The notes below the pieces were generated by a model that saw nothing but the letters and a program-made list of their open reading frames with translations, was not told where the DNA came from and did not search any database. A program made the translations under genes and the position numbers. From Halodesulfovibrio sp. MK-HDV (lineage in GTDB: Bacteria > Desulfobacterota > Desulfovibrionia > Desulfovibrionales > Desulfovibrionaceae): DNA of 64,000 nucleotides. Within the stretch, counting starts at the first letter, position 1; every line of letters begins with the position of its first letter. Below, piece after piece: positions 48,381 to 53,776 of the stretch. The stretch spans positions 1 through 64,000 of the forward strand of contig NZ_WYDS01000007.1 in NCBI RefSeq assembly GCF_009914765.1, read 5' to 3'.

Positions 48381-49292
48381 CTATTCTTCTGTTACAATCT
48401 GCGGAAGCATTTGCATAAGGTGATCCCTTACATCAAATACAAACTGGTTCAGAAGATTGGAACGATATTTCTGCCGGTTCATAACGGCATAAAGGCTGCG
48501 TTTAAGGCGTATCCCTTCGAGCTGCACAGGAAATAATTCCCCTTTTGCTAACTCGCGCTGGAAGCAGAACGGAGACATACAACTAAGCGTTCCCGGGTTT
48601 TTCAACACGGACTTAATTGCTTCCATATGTTCAAGTTCCATAAATATGTTCAAATCTTTTTTGGACTGCCCCAAGTGGTTCCACATTGTCTGGCGAGTAC
48701 CGGAGCCCTGCTCACGCAGAATCCAGTCTAGATCTAACAGCTCAGACAATCTGTACTCTTGTAAGCCAGCCATATATTTGTCAGCTGTTACAACAACGAG
48801 CTCTTCTTTAAAAATTTCCTCAAACTCTGCGGAATGTGATTCATAATCACCTTCGATAAAGCCTAAGTTAATTTCACCACTCTCAACGTGCTCAACAACC
48901 TGCTCTGAGTTGTAGTTAATAACTTCAATCTGGCTCTGAGGATATTTGGTTTTGAACGTATAGAGAACTTGCGGCAGGATGTAATCCGCAAAGGTAGAGC
49001 TCGCGCCAACGCGAAGTACGCCGGCCATTCGGTCACGTTTGAACAACGTTTCTACATCACGTATCTGCTCAAACGCAGGCTCGAGACACTCCATAAGAAT
49101 TTTACCATTCTCGTTGGGTACGAGTCTATTGCTGATTCGGTCGAACAATCGTTCACCCACAGTCTGCTCTAGTGCTTTAATCGCCATTGAGACAGCAGAA
49201 TGAGTCAAAAAATGCTCCTGCGCTACTGCCCCGATATGTGGATTACGCATAAGCGAAAGGAATAATTCGATTTGCCTGATGGTAATATTCAT
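48381..49292 (-). CDS. LysR-family transcriptional regulator
   Basis: About 303 residues. The N-terminal winged HTH reads ITIRQIELFLSLMRNPHIGAVAQEHFLTHSAVSMAIKALEQTVGERLFDR (given here in family order). It is followed by the two-lobe effector domain (VLRVGASSTFADYILPQVL, GFIEGDYESHS and WILREQGSGTRQ). ATG 49292 has AGGA upstream. The effector is unknown; the neighbouring cstA is a plausible target. Confidence 0.92.
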   Translation of the reverse strand: MNITIRQIELFLSLMRNPHIGAVAQEHFLTHSAVSMAIKALEQTVGERLFDRISNRLVPNENGKILMECLEPAFEQIRDVETLFKRDRMAGVLRVGASSTFADYILPQVLYTFKTKYPQSQIEVINYNSEQVVEHVESGEINLGFIEGDYESHSAEFEEIFKEELVVVTADKYMAGLQEYRLSELLDLDWILREQGSGTRQTMWNHLGQSKKDLNIFMELEHMEAIKSVLKNPGTLSCMSPFCFQRELAKGELFPVQLEGIRLKRSLYAVMNRQKYRSNLLNQFVFDVRDHLMQMLPQIVTEE

Positions 49293-49570
49293 AGGATCCT
49301 CTTTCAAAAAAAATGAATGAATCTTTCAATATTATAAACTTGAAATTTAATCTACTACGGTTATTGTCTCCTCACAGACGAATTCTACTATCATACTAGT
49401 ACTGCCATATTTTGTACGATAGACGAATATATATGACCTACTTCCTCCTTTTTGTGAAAAATCTCCTGTACCACGAACGGGAGATTTTTTGTTTTTGCAG
49501 GCGTATCTCTAACTACAGAACTGTTTGGAATTACTAGCATATTTCAAAAGTTCATATGTCAGAGGTATTC

Positions 49571-50161
49571 AAAGGAGTGCGCTTTTCTGGTGCACACACT
49601 AGAAAAGCGTTGCTCCTTGGGTTTTCGTTCTTCTGGCTGAGACAAGCTAGTGCAGTGCCCGGTCACATAACTCTTATACAGAATACGTACTGTATTCTTT
49701 GTAACAAGTTATTTACGAACCGAAGCAGGTTGCACGCGTAATCAGCCGGTTACACTATGAGCTGCCCCTCATAGTGTTTGTTGGAATTTCCCGGGTCTTT
49801 TGAGTTTGACTAAACAACTTCTTTTTACCCTATGCGCACCAGCTTTTGAGTCTGGAGACAATGCACCCATGCGTGCCCGGACTTACAAGCAAGAAGATGT
49901 TTATGTACTCATACTAAGTATACCATACATCGCACATTGATAACTATAGGCTTGATAACGCCTGCACAGGAACTGTTGTTCCACGCAGTTGGCCATTGTT
50001 ATCTCTGAGTAAGGTTTGCTTTTGCACTTCAAAAGACCCGGGAATCCGATAGACCTATAATGCCGTCCGGCATTATCCTCATCCGAAGCTTTCCCATTTG
50101 CACGGTCAGGACAAATACGTACCTGCACCCGTAACCGCGTCACTTTCTATACATTGCGTGC
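49571..50161. ncRNA. Candidate large structured RNA region
   Basis: No protein is credible here, yet nested inverted repeats fill the region. Hairpin 49572-49617 has arms AAGGAG...CGCTTTTCT and AGAAAAGCG...CTCCTT. Hairpin 49680-49699 is AGAATAC/GTATTCT. Hairpin 49752-49777 has a perfect 10-bp stem. A 16-bp perfect long-range pair joins 49788-49803 to 50029-50044. Outside it CGGTTAC (49747-49753) faces GTAACCG (50131-50137) and GCACGC (49732) faces GCGTGC (50155). Inside are GATAAC/GTTATC and GGAAC/GTTCC stems. Hairpin 50057-50076 is a perfect palindrome. Strand and ends are unknown; I know no RNA family that fits. Confidence 0.45.
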
Positions 50162-50396
50162 CACATCATACTTTGATATAGCCGCCCTGTTTCCTTGCCC
50201 AATCTACTCTTACAAAATACAATACGCTTATTTTACGAGACTTTTTTTCATTTCATCTGTGCGCTCAACCATGCACTTTTTGTTTGTCCATATAATATAC
50301 CAATATAATTAGTATACTGTGTGGATTTGTTTGTTTTTTTTGCCTATTATCTCGCAACTAATAATTTATTTATGGAACTTGTATGGAGGATGAATA
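50162..50396. other. AT-rich upstream region of frdC
   Basis: It probably holds the frd promoter: several TATAAT-like hexamers lie between 50290 and 50325 (TATAATATACC, AATATAATTAG, TATACT) with TTGTCC at 50284. I cannot choose one. A GGAGG at 50385-50389 is the ribosome site of frdC. Confidence 0.45.
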
Positions 50397-51062
50397 ATGA
50401 ACTCTAGCACCATTACTCTGCACGCCCCCGCAAAAAGCAAGACACAGGGACGTTTGGATTTTTTCCAAATGATTTCCGGCGTCCTGCTTATCCTTTTTTT
50501 ATGGGCACACATGCTTCTTGTTTCCAGCGTGATCATCAGCCCTAGCCTCATGAACGCTATCGCGTGGTTCTTTGAAGCTACGTACATGGCACAAGTTGGC
50601 GGTCCGTTGATCGGTATCCTTATTTTTGCGCATTTTCTGCTTGCTGCACGCAAAATGCCTTGGAAAGTTTCAGAGTCAGACGCATTCATCAAACACAGTA
50701 TAATGATGAAGCACCGTGACACTTGGATGTGGCTTGCTCAGGTTGCCACCGCTCTTATCATCCTCATTATGGCCAGCATCCACATGTGGGTTGTGCTTAC
50801 AGACTTGCCAATTACTGCCGTTAAAAGTGCGGCGCGCATTCAGCACGGTGGCTGGCTGCTATTCTATCTAATCCTTCTTCCAATTGCAGAAACCCACGTA
50901 GGCATCGGTTTTTACCGCATCGGCGTAAAATACGGGGTCATCACTAAGGAAAATCGCGCTTGGTATAAAAGGAAAGAATACGCGCTCATGGGCGGCTTCA
51001 TCTTTATCGGTCTGATCACGCTTGTGCGCTTTATGTATCTGCCTCTACACAGTGGCATGTAA
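50397..51062 (+). CDS. frdC: Fumarate reductase/succinate dehydrogenase cytochrome b subunit
   Basis: Membrane anchor that carries heme b and exchanges electrons with menaquinol. 221 residues with five membrane helices and several conserved His (LWAHMLL, FAHFLL, IHMWVV, RIQHGGWLL, ETHVGIGFYR), as in the diheme Wolinella-type FrdC. Good ribosome site upstream. First gene of frdCAB-fumAB. Confidence 0.93.
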   Translation: MNSSTITLHAPAKSKTQGRLDFFQMISGVLLILFLWAHMLLVSSVIISPSLMNAIAWFFEATYMAQVGGPLIGILIFAHFLLAARKMPWKVSESDAFIKHSIMMKHRDTWMWLAQVATALIILIMASIHMWVVLTDLPITAVKSAARIQHGGWLLFYLILLPIAETHVGIGFYRIGVKYGVITKENRAWYKRKEYALMGGFIFIGLITLVRFMYLPLHSGM

Positions 51063-51080: not shown

Positions 51081-52970
51081 ATGCAAATTTTCTACACTGA
51101 CTTATTATGCATTGGCGCAGGACTTGCCGGAGAGCGCGTAGCCGTTGAAGCTGCCAAAGCCGGATTTAACGCAACATGCCTTTCCATTGTTCCTCCACGC
51201 CGTTCTCATTCATCCGCGGCTCAGGGCGGAATGCAGGCTGCACTCGGTAACTGCGTTATGGGTGAAGGTGACTCACCGGACATTCATTTTGCAGATACCG
51301 TAAAAGGCTCAGACTGGGGCTGCGATCAGGAAGTTGCCCGAATTTTTGCGGACACAGCTCCCATTGTAATGCGTGAAGTAGCGCATTGGGGCGTGCCGTG
51401 GAACCGCGTTGAACAAGGTCCAGCCACCTACTACAAAGGCGGCAAACCCTTTGACGCCGTGGAAAGCAAAGAAAAGCACGGTCTCATTCACGCCCGTGCT
51501 TTTGGTGGCACCGCTAAATGGCGTACATGCTACACAGCAGACGGCACAGGCCGCTCTGTTCTTAATACTCTGGACTCCATGTGCCTACGCTACGATGTAA
51601 ATATTCATGACCGCACTCAGGCAGAAGCCCTTATTCATGACGGTGAAAATTGTATCGGTGCTATTGTCCGCTGTCTGCGTACAGGCGAGCTTATGGCGTA
51701 CTATGCAACAGCAACCCTCATTGCGACTGGCGGCTATGGACGAATCTACAAAGCCACAACCAACGCGGTTATCTGCGACGGTGGCGGTCAGATTGCAGCA
51801 CTCGATACAGGACTCGTTCCTTTGGGCAACATGGAGGCAATCCAGTTCCACCCGACAGGAACCGTGCCTACAGATATTCTGGTAACAGAAGGCTGTCGTG
51901 GTGATGGCGGTACACTCCTAGATGTTAACGAATACCGCTTTATGCCGGATTACGAACCGGAAAAAGCTGAACTTGCTTCCCGAGACGTTGTTTCCCGCCG
52001 GATGCAGGAGCACATGGCAAAAGGGTTTGGAGTAAAATCTCCATACGGCGACCATTTATGGCTCGACATCCGTCACCTTGGCGAAAAGCACATCACTACT
52101 AAACTTCGTGAAGTATATGACATCTGCACCAGTTTCCTTGGTGTGAATCCGATTACCGGACTCATTCCGGTTCGCCCTACTCAGCATTACTCAATGGGCG
52201 GTTTGCGCACGAACAAAGACGGCGCAGCATACGGCCTTAAAGGTCTGTTCTCCGCTGGTGAAGCAGCTTGTTGGGACATGCATGGATTCAACCGCCTTGG
52301 TGGTAACTCCCTTGCTGAAACCGTTGTTGCGGGTCGCTATGTCGGGCAGAAGGTTGTGGAATTTCTGCAAGGCAATTCTGTCGATTTTAAACAAAGTGCA
52401 CTGCGTGACGCCCACATGAAAATAGATGGGCGCATCAAGTTTCTTGCAGGCAACTCAGGAAAAGAAAGTGCCATTGTTCTGCGCGACGAAATGCAGGATA
52501 TAATGATGGACTACGTAGGAATCTTCCGTAATGGTAAGGACCTGCAGACAGCAGTAGACAAATTGGAAGAACTGCACGCACGCTCCATGAGCATCGGTCT
52601 GCAAGGTAACGCCATCGGGTTTAATCCGGAAATTTCGTTAGCCTTACGCATCCCGGGAATGATCAAACTTGCACAGTGCACCGCATTCGGCGCGCTGAAA
52701 CGCACAGAATCCCGCGGCGCACACACTCGCGAAGATCACCCTGAACGTAACGATAAAGAGTGGCTCAACCGCACGCTGGCGTACTGGAAAGAAGGCGATT
52801 CTTTGCCGACTCTCAAGTATGAAGATGCCTCACCTTACTTTGAAATTCCTCCGGGAGAACGCGGATACGGCGGCGGAAAAATCCTCTATGCGGATATTCC
52901 GGCTGACAAGCTGCGCGTTCCTGAGAAGAAATCATCCGAAACTGCCGCACCTGCGGAAGACAAAGAGTAA
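51081..52970 (+). CDS. frdA: Fumarate reductase flavoprotein subunit
   Basis: Catalytic subunit, 629 residues. FAD motif CIGAGLAGERVAVEAAKAG. RRSHSSAAQGGMQAALGN contains the His that carries covalent FAD. HPTGTVPTDILVTEGCRGDGG, RPTQHYSMGGLRTNKDG, and FNRLGGNSLAETVVAGRYVG near the dicarboxylate site. The tail is Glu/Lys-rich. It interconverts fumarate and succinate; direction is not given by sequence alone, although the diheme anchor allows either. Confidence 0.96.
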   Translation: MQIFYTDLLCIGAGLAGERVAVEAAKAGFNATCLSIVPPRRSHSSAAQGGMQAALGNCVMGEGDSPDIHFADTVKGSDWGCDQEVARIFADTAPIVMREVAHWGVPWNRVEQGPATYYKGGKPFDAVESKEKHGLIHARAFGGTAKWRTCYTADGTGRSVLNTLDSMCLRYDVNIHDRTQAEALIHDGENCIGAIVRCLRTGELMAYYATATLIATGGYGRIYKATTNAVICDGGGQIAALDTGLVPLGNMEAIQFHPTGTVPTDILVTEGCRGDGGTLLDVNEYRFMPDYEPEKAELASRDVVSRRMQEHMAKGFGVKSPYGDHLWLDIRHLGEKHITTKLREVYDICTSFLGVNPITGLIPVRPTQHYSMGGLRTNKDGAAYGLKGLFSAGEAACWDMHGFNRLGGNSLAETVVAGRYVGQKVVEFLQGNSVDFKQSALRDAHMKIDGRIKFLAGNSGKESAIVLRDEMQDIMMDYVGIFRNGKDLQTAVDKLEELHARSMSIGLQGNAIGFNPEISLALRIPGMIKLAQCTAFGALKRTESRGAHTREDHPERNDKEWLNRTLAYWKEGDSLPTLKYEDASPYFEIPPGERGYGGGKILYADIPADKLRVPEKKSSETAAPAEDKE

Positions 52971-52981
52971 GGGAGTAAATT

Positions 52982-53776
52982 ATGAGCCGTCGTCTCCATA
53001 TCGAAGTATTCCGTTATAATCCACTTGATCCAAATTCCGAACCGCAGATGCAGTCATTCTATATTGATGAATATGACTCCATGACCTTATTTATCGCGCT
53101 GAACATTATCCGCGATCAGCACGACGCGACATTACAGTTTGATTTCTGCTGTCGCGCAGGTATCTGTGGTTCCTGCGGAATGGTCATCAACGGACGCCCC
53201 GGCCTTGCCTGTCATACACAGACAAAAGATCTGCCGACTCATATTGTTCTGCACCCGTTGCCGGTATTCAAACTTATCGGCGACCTTTCTGTTGATACGG
53301 GAGTGTGGTTCCGTGATGCAGGAACACGCATTGAAGCGTGGGTACACAACGATCATGAAGCACTTGACCCTACGCAGGAAGAAGCTCGCATGGAAAATTC
53401 CCTTGCAAATGAAATCTTCGAGCTTGATCGATGCGTGGAATGCGGTTGTTGCATAGCAGCCTGCGGTACAGCCCGTATGCGTCCAGACTTCCTTGGTGCA
53501 GCCGCCATAGCCCGTGTTGCCCGCTTCTACCTTGACCCTCGTGACGAAAGAAACGTGGAAAACTACTACGAAGTAATCGGCAACGATCAAGGCGTATTCG
53601 GCTGCATGGGACTACTCGCCTGCGAAGATGTCTGTCCTAAACATATTCCTTTGCAGGATCAGCTCGGCATTATGCGTCGTATGCTGGCTCTGCATTCCGT
53701 AAAAGGAATTGTGCCTAAATCGCTGATTAACAAACTCTCGCATAAGGGATGTTGCCATGAGAACCATCAAAGCTGA
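52982..53776 (+). CDS. frdB: Fumarate reductase iron-sulfur subunit
   Basis: 264 residues: an N-terminal ferredoxin domain with CCRAGICGSCGMVINGRPGLAC ([2Fe-2S]; shown here as the family motif) and a C-terminal part with CVECGCCIAACG and CMGLLACEDVCPKHIP for the [4Fe-4S] and [3Fe-4S] centres. It links FrdA to the membrane anchor. The last 20 bases overlap the fumarase alpha gene. Confidence 0.96.
   Translation: MSRRLHIEVFRYNPLDPNSEPQMQSFYIDEYDSMTLFIALNIIRDQHDATLQFDFCCRAGICGSCGMVINGRPGLACHTQTKDLPTHIVLHPLPVFKLIGDLSVDTGVWFRDAGTRIEAWVHNDHEALDPTQEEARMENSLANEIFELDRCVECGCCIAACGTARMRPDFLGAAAIARVARFYLDPRDERNVENYYEVIGNDQGVFGCMGLLACEDVCPKHIPLQDQLGIMRRMLALHSVKGIVPKSLINKLSHKGCCHENHQS

Follow-up and report, generated by a model that had tools for sequence, protein, structure and literature searches.

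A lineage-specific structured RNA of about 300 nucleotides upstream of a fumarate reductase operon in Halodesulfovibrio, supported by six-genome covariation

6S RNA is by definition a single long hairpin carrying a central bubble. Structured RNAs that are specific to one lineage, as large as the one reported here and supported by covariation are uncommon. In attenuator and riboswitch leaders, a metabolic operon is preceded by structured RNA, and a hairpin plus U-run lies close to the start codon, an arrangement that recurs at the present locus. Orphan large structured RNAs such as OLE are large, complex and conserved, and their sequence does not reveal their function; the Halodesulfovibrio RNA resembles them in these respects, and differs in that the searches place it in a single genus and in that it has no Rfam match. 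Ms1 is described as an RNA of about 300 nt that binds the RNA polymerase core in a phylum, the Actinobacteria, without known 6S RNA (PMC9130861). The length of about 300 nt, the short hairpin before the closing helix and the occurrence where 6S is not known are common to Ms1 and to the Halodesulfovibrio RNA (PMC9130861). On the other hand, the latter has no central-bubble hairpin, its 3′ hairpin is unconserved, and it comes from another phylum.

The whole stretch of DNA that was analysed (64,000 nt) is referred to as the window. It comes from the marine sulfate reducer Halodesulfovibrio, in which the structured element lies between a LysR-type gene on the minus strand and frdCAB on the plus strand, the latter starting at 50397. 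The features of the locus, in window coordinates, are the following:

48381–49307, minus strand: divergent LysR-type regulator gene (Pfam LysR_substrate and HTH_1)
49457–49495, plus strand: T1, a hairpin followed by a T-run (inverted repeat 49457–49469/49477–49489)
49572–49618, plus strand: P0, a long 5′ hairpin that folds in 6/6 genomes (−19.6 to −31.9 kcal/mol)
49621–49748, plus strand: variable, dispensable 5′ domain (61% identity in four genomes)
49752–49777, plus strand: HP1, a hairpin whose loop (C/U)UGCCC is kept at 49762–49767
49783–49803, plus strand: 5′ strand of the closing helix P1, made of the 16-bp arm 49788–49803 and GGA at 49783–49785
49811–49903, plus strand: P2 arm (49811–49823 with 49891–49903; 49842–49855 with 49877–49890)
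49824–49841, plus strand: one-sided bulge of P2, 18 nt, UUUACCCUAUGCGCACCA in the window
49904–49922, plus strand: P3, a small hairpin with double changes in two of its five pairs
49939–50003, plus strand: P4 arm, with a GATAAC/GTTATC base, an internal loop holding a second GATAAC, and apical CUGC/GCAG and GGAAC/GUUCC pairings
50029–50047, plus strand: 3′ strand of P1, from the inverted repeat and covariation
50048–50145, plus strand: unconserved spacer, 98 nt (39% identity in four genomes, 32% in six)
50146–50285, plus strand: conserved block between core and T2 (72–74% identity in four genomes)
50286–50341, plus strand: T2, a hairpin (50286–50326; loop AUA, TATAAT at 50304–50309) followed by a U-run (50327–50341)
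50397–51062, plus strand: frdC (Pfam Sdh_cyt)
51081–52970, plus strand: frdA (Pfam FAD_binding_2/Succ_DH_flav_C)
52982–53776, plus strand: frdB (Pfam Fer2_3)

The genus label covers ten genomes including that of the window (G000). The same succession of LysR gene, conserved gap and frd operon is found in six of them (G000, G001, G002, G005, G008 and G009), in all of which the LysR-type gene is the upstream neighbour, with 89–94% identity in the five RNA-bearing genomes other than the window's. In G003, G004, G006 and G007 the gap gives no match, and frdC is merely a distant relative (51–54% identity to that of the window). These four genomes are labelled as the same genus, yet have such a divergent FrdC and no RNA; the genus grouping of the ten looks broad.

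The initial annotation had proposed a large structured RNA in this gap, and the 16-bp long-range pairing of 49788–49803 with 50029–50044 on which it drew is real. This perfect inverted repeat is present in the window, no longer one than 16 nt occurs in 49571–50161 (60 first-order Markov simulations averaged 9.5 and never exceeded 12), and 15–16 of its 16 positions are paired in each of the six genomes. Folding of the plus strand yields −208 kcal/mol (z −7.3), a value equalled by none of 100 shuffled sequences.

Comparison of the six genomes extends these observations to a common fold. The alignment of their cores (A4) forms the basis of a consensus in which HP1 and P1 are accompanied by three inner arms, P2, P3 and P4, and delimits a conserved core of 297 nt (49751–50047): HP1, a capped hairpin, is followed by the P1-closed domain that holds the three arms. 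In this consensus, 22 of 77 pairs have changed on both sides with the pair kept (mean of 7.9 in shuffles, 0/500 reaching 22), and standard pairs occupy 90.4% of 458 cells (shuffle mean 84.7%, 0/500 reaching the observed value), figures to be read with the consensus structure being derived from the same six sequences and with the capacity of related sequences to exceed shuffles. Sliding the partners by 1–3 columns leaves 2–8 double-change pairs and 36–45% of paired cells, versus 90% in register. The RNAalifold consensus energy of −61.8 kcal/mol lies below that of 60 column shuffles, which average −19.5 (z −11.8); the covariation term of this energy is near zero (+0.21). Double changes concern 3 of 20 pairs in P1; in G001, CCCGGGTC/GACCCGGG is replaced by CCCGAATC/GATTCGGG, turning GG/CC into AA/UU. 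What the slid control shows, and the double changes seen in P1, would be hard to get unless the fold is real. Covarying pairs and conservation in relatives, named beforehand as the features whose absence would speak against such an RNA, were both found in the six genomes, and the proposal of a large structured RNA is supported by this covariation. Its extent, on the other hand, had been misjudged: what is conserved is the core at 49751–50047, a separate 5′ hairpin at 49572–49618 and the hairpin with U-run at 50286–50341.

The individual parts of the core are kept to different degrees. Two flanking hairpins had been described, of which the first, HP1, stands, with 8–10 of 10 positions paired in 6/6 genomes, 5 of 9 pairs carrying double changes and 96% of cells paired; the second (50057–50076) falls within the spacer, and of the six genomes only that of the window has it, nine of its nine pairs forming there and 0–2 of nine in the other five. 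Within P2, the pairing of 49811–49823 with 49891–49903 has double changes in 7 of 12 pairs (83% of cells paired) and that of 49842–49855 with 49877–49890 in 2 of 12 (85%). The 18-nt bulge between these strands is the best-kept unpaired stretch that was measured, its identity amounting to 97–98% in four or five genomes and to 85% in six. At the base of P4, GTTATC is the partner of the first GATAAC copy in five genomes; the sixth (G001) has ATAGAT/ATCTAT, both sides having changed. The second copy, in the internal loop, is kept in the five genomes and does not follow the change in the sixth. It had been suggested that the two copies compete for the one GTTATC; the alternative pairing through the second copy is not conserved, and a switch between two folds is unsupported because this copy fails to follow the GTTATC change. 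The outer pairings fared no better: CGGTTAC/GTAACCG forms at all 7 positions in the window and at 1–5 of them in the remaining five genomes, and GCACGC/GCGTGC is complete in 3/6, its 5′ side lying in an alignment gap for two of the rest. As neither these pairings nor the 50057–50076 hairpin are conserved, the supported nesting spans about 300 bases instead of the 430 originally given.

On either side of the core the elements are more loosely attached. T1 (92% identity in four genomes, 91% in five, and read in the sixth genome too) probably acts as an intrinsic terminator ahead of the RNA, and would bound transcription coming from further upstream. P0 has 88% identity in four genomes, and in G001 it is located on a different contig from the core. 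An IS-like insertion separates the two in G001 (L057:450–596 and L058:1–137) and the contigs break inside it; by eye, its ends are 22-base inverted repeats with one difference, a transposase-like reading frame starts in the left piece, and it is apparently an IS element. G008 is without the 128 nt matching 49622–49749 between P0 and the core, and its core is still kept. Downstream, the block 50146–50285 possibly contains promoter or operator sequence for frd. In T2, 87% of cells are paired versus 30–43% when slid, with a covariation that does not exceed that of shuffles (100 to 225 of 500). The start of frdC follows T2 by 52–57 nt in 6/6 genomes. T2 is probably a terminator or attenuator, or else a promoter inside a palindrome; since its loop carries TATAAT in 6/6 genomes, it may be, or overlap, the promoter of frd. 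A simple consensus scan flagged neither T1 nor T2, no clear terminator was seen directly after the core, and the promoter scan gave no clear promoter (4 sites versus 3.5 expected).

An Rfam search of the window gave no match at the gathering score, in agreement with the claim that the element belongs to no known RNA family. Lowering the threshold to E up to 10 for 49300–50420 produced seven weak matches, all under the gathering score, and no riboswitch was matched in the region. The best of the seven, mir-290 in P0, was discarded (23.2 bits versus a gathering score of 51). RNase P RNA (RF00010) was likewise set aside, being found elsewhere in 6/6 genomes with no match in the region, as were tRNA and tmRNA, for which an ARAGORN match is absent from the window. 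Among 59 relatives searched at the DNA level, seven gave a match, namely the six genomes and G048, the latter over 33 nt. A covariance model of the core, R1, was trained on all six sequences; since all of them went into building it, the model is without an independent member. Run with the stricter filters of Infernal, under which weak matches are lost, R1 retrieved the six genomes and a 28-nt match in G270 from a sample of 247 family genomes (E up to 1; no further credible copy), and the window genome alone from a sample of 395 phylum genomes. A motif pattern recovered 14 stretches in contigs of 84,980 species, among which the window's own and near genomes may be absent, and one in viral contigs; when these 15 stretches and L008 were scored with R1, two Halodesulfovibrio records obtained 315 and 293 bits and the rest at most 15.2 bits. 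With the filters off, the best score of R1 was 9.6 bits on the frd and LysR loci of G003, G004, G006 and G007 and on three loci of the second frd operon. Phages (35 records) yielded one 27-nt stretch (E 0.3) and plasmids none. Searches of open-licence literature showed no earlier description of the RNA, the term counts being zero in PMC11109978 and PMC8632094. From these comparisons we conclude that, as far as searched, this is a new structured RNA restricted to Halodesulfovibrio.

Concerning its function, the reading that we prefer, and to which we give about an even chance, is that of a stand-alone structured RNA gene ending at T2 with read-through into frd. Transcription would start upstream of P0 (about 49500–49570) and proceed on the plus strand toward frd; the transcript would end at T2, shortly ahead of frdC, and some polymerases would presumably read through into the operon. 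The folded core would then form a body for a protein or other RNAs, with the HP1 loop (C/U)UGCCC and the 18-nt bulge of P2 as candidate contact sites. Its action would be in trans; both the spacer and frd are situated beyond the folded core. A stand-alone RNA is placed before a leader because 240 nt, including the 98-nt unconserved spacer, part the core from T2, and because no antiterminator pairing is shared. The preservation of the core in G008 despite the 128 nt missing after P0 was counted in favour of a stand-alone RNA, whereas the insertion that parts P0 from the core in G001, the lack of a clear promoter and the unflagged T1 and T2 were counted against it.

The same distance weighs on the main rival, which we consider possible but less likely, namely that the RNA is a long cis-acting leader of frd. 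Transcription would again start upstream of P0, the core would respond to a metabolite, to a protein or to the redox state, and T2 would stop or pass the polymerase. The RNA stands in front of frd in 6/6 genomes, and the 52–57 nt between T2 and frdC leave little room for a later promoter; however, among genomes this closely related synteny says little, and the invariant TATAAT in T2 could itself be frd's own promoter. An attenuator is expected to show mutually exclusive pairings, and here T2 has no shared partner and the GATAAC alternative is not conserved. Single genomes did give strong T2 duplexes, such as that with the 5′ arm in G009 (−20.4 versus a shuffled minimum of −15.3), but no antiterminator partner for the arms of T2 is found at a shared place across the six. 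The 240-nt gap between core and hairpin, the absence of any alternative pairing found and the lack of an Rfam riboswitch match in the region set the locus apart from described attenuator and riboswitch leaders. A leader would, on the other hand, have a counterpart in the same six genomes, where the second frd operon is preceded by a structured leader too:

G000:C3:234539–234703; L026:2141–2305 (minus strand); L021–L025: leader of the second frd operon, a structured element in the six genomes

This leader of 160 nt is strongly structured (z −6.9) and has its ribosome-binding site paired. Its model, R2, matches 6 of the 247 family genomes, all of them Halodesulfovibrio, and no others; three of the six loci searched against Rfam (E up to 1) gave no match over the gathering score. 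We regard it as a candidate riboswitch-like element. Both frd operons of one genus are therefore preceded by a structured RNA, and the two are mutually unrelated as far as the models show.

It seems improbable that the functional RNA is read from the minus strand, or that the conservation acts at the DNA level through operators or palindromes. The minus strand does fold well (z −5.6), and its RNAalifold consensus is about equal to that of the plus strand (−63.9, z −11.0). The plus strand is nevertheless favoured because G·U cells outnumber A·C cells (27 versus 8 over the core consensus, 8 versus 2 in HP1 and P1, 12 versus 7 in T2) and because the T-runs after T1 and T2 are both on this strand. 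These counts favour, and are not proof of, an RNA read from the plus strand. As for conserved DNA sites, compensatory changes in arms 225 nt apart would be unexpected of operators.

Very unlikely, in our estimate, is a sub-case of the stand-alone RNA gene in which the RNA acquired a global role once the clade had lost 6S RNA, as with Ms1. Its starting point is a distribution: a search for 6S RNA (RF00013, E up to 0.001) matched 0/6 whole RNA-bearing genomes, and a laxer search gave a match in 4/4 same-genus genomes without the RNA (G003, G004, G006 and G007). RF00013 is matched in 73 of 79 family genomes sampled, the six misses being G000, G001 and G066 together with G027, G030 and G062 (64–74% complete); G066 became positive under the laxer search. 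Among the Desulfovibrionaceae examined that are at least 90% complete, the six RNA-bearing genomes alone are without a 6S match. In five relatives inspected, 6S adjoins zapA and/or rny. The distance from the zapA stop to the rny match has shrunk to 176–188 nt in the six (L099–L104), versus 415 nt with a 183-nt 6S in G016; this gap is too short for 6S in 6/6 genomes, which indicates that the 6S gene was deleted from its old place. A diverged 6S may nonetheless persist elsewhere in the six genomes, past the reach of RF00013. Because the matching distributions of 6S and the RNA concern one evolutionary branch, they amount to a single coincidence of little statistical weight.

In itself, the Halodesulfovibrio RNA resembles 6S RNA in being intergenic and single-copy, in having a long closing helix and in its complementary distribution within the family examined. 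It differs in size (a core of about 300 nt versus 187 model positions in RF00013), in its locus between lysR and frdC instead of the zapA neighbourhood, and in its architecture, the consensus having P2, P3 and P4 inside P1 in place of a single hairpin with a central bubble; moreover, RF00013 does not match the region even at E up to 10. A precedent for a different RNA where 6S is not known is Ms1, a polymerase-bound RNA of about 300 nt in a phylum without known 6S (PMC9130861). With an equally small probability, the RNA might represent a new class of about 300 nt that was born beside frd in Halodesulfovibrio and became a global, RNA polymerase- or protein-bound regulator upon deletion of the 6S gene from between zapA and rny, much as Ms1 may substitute for 6S in Actinobacteria.

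A protein-coding reading is rejected, as the absence of a credible protein noted at the outset was confirmed by open reading frames that differ between genomes with none kept, by a core alignment in which 44 of 46 gap runs have lengths other than multiples of three, and by two window ORFs tried against Pfam without a match.

An action on frd would make the RNA an unrecognised layer of control over the fumarate respiration of sulfate reducers. Should it act in trans, the arrival of the RNA in a clade without detectable 6S would offer a directly testable case of bacterial life without 6S.

Two further observations concern the region next to the LysR-type gene. An inverted repeat, TTTCAA-N10-TTGAAA, is located before this gene (window 49324–49345) and is present in others of the six genomes too; we take it to resemble a LysR-type operator. 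Before T1, a pyrimidine-rich stretch, CTTCCTCCTTTTTG, is observed, and together with T1 (both within window 49420–49495) it could represent the end of a small, separate plus-strand RNA between lysR and the structured RNA.
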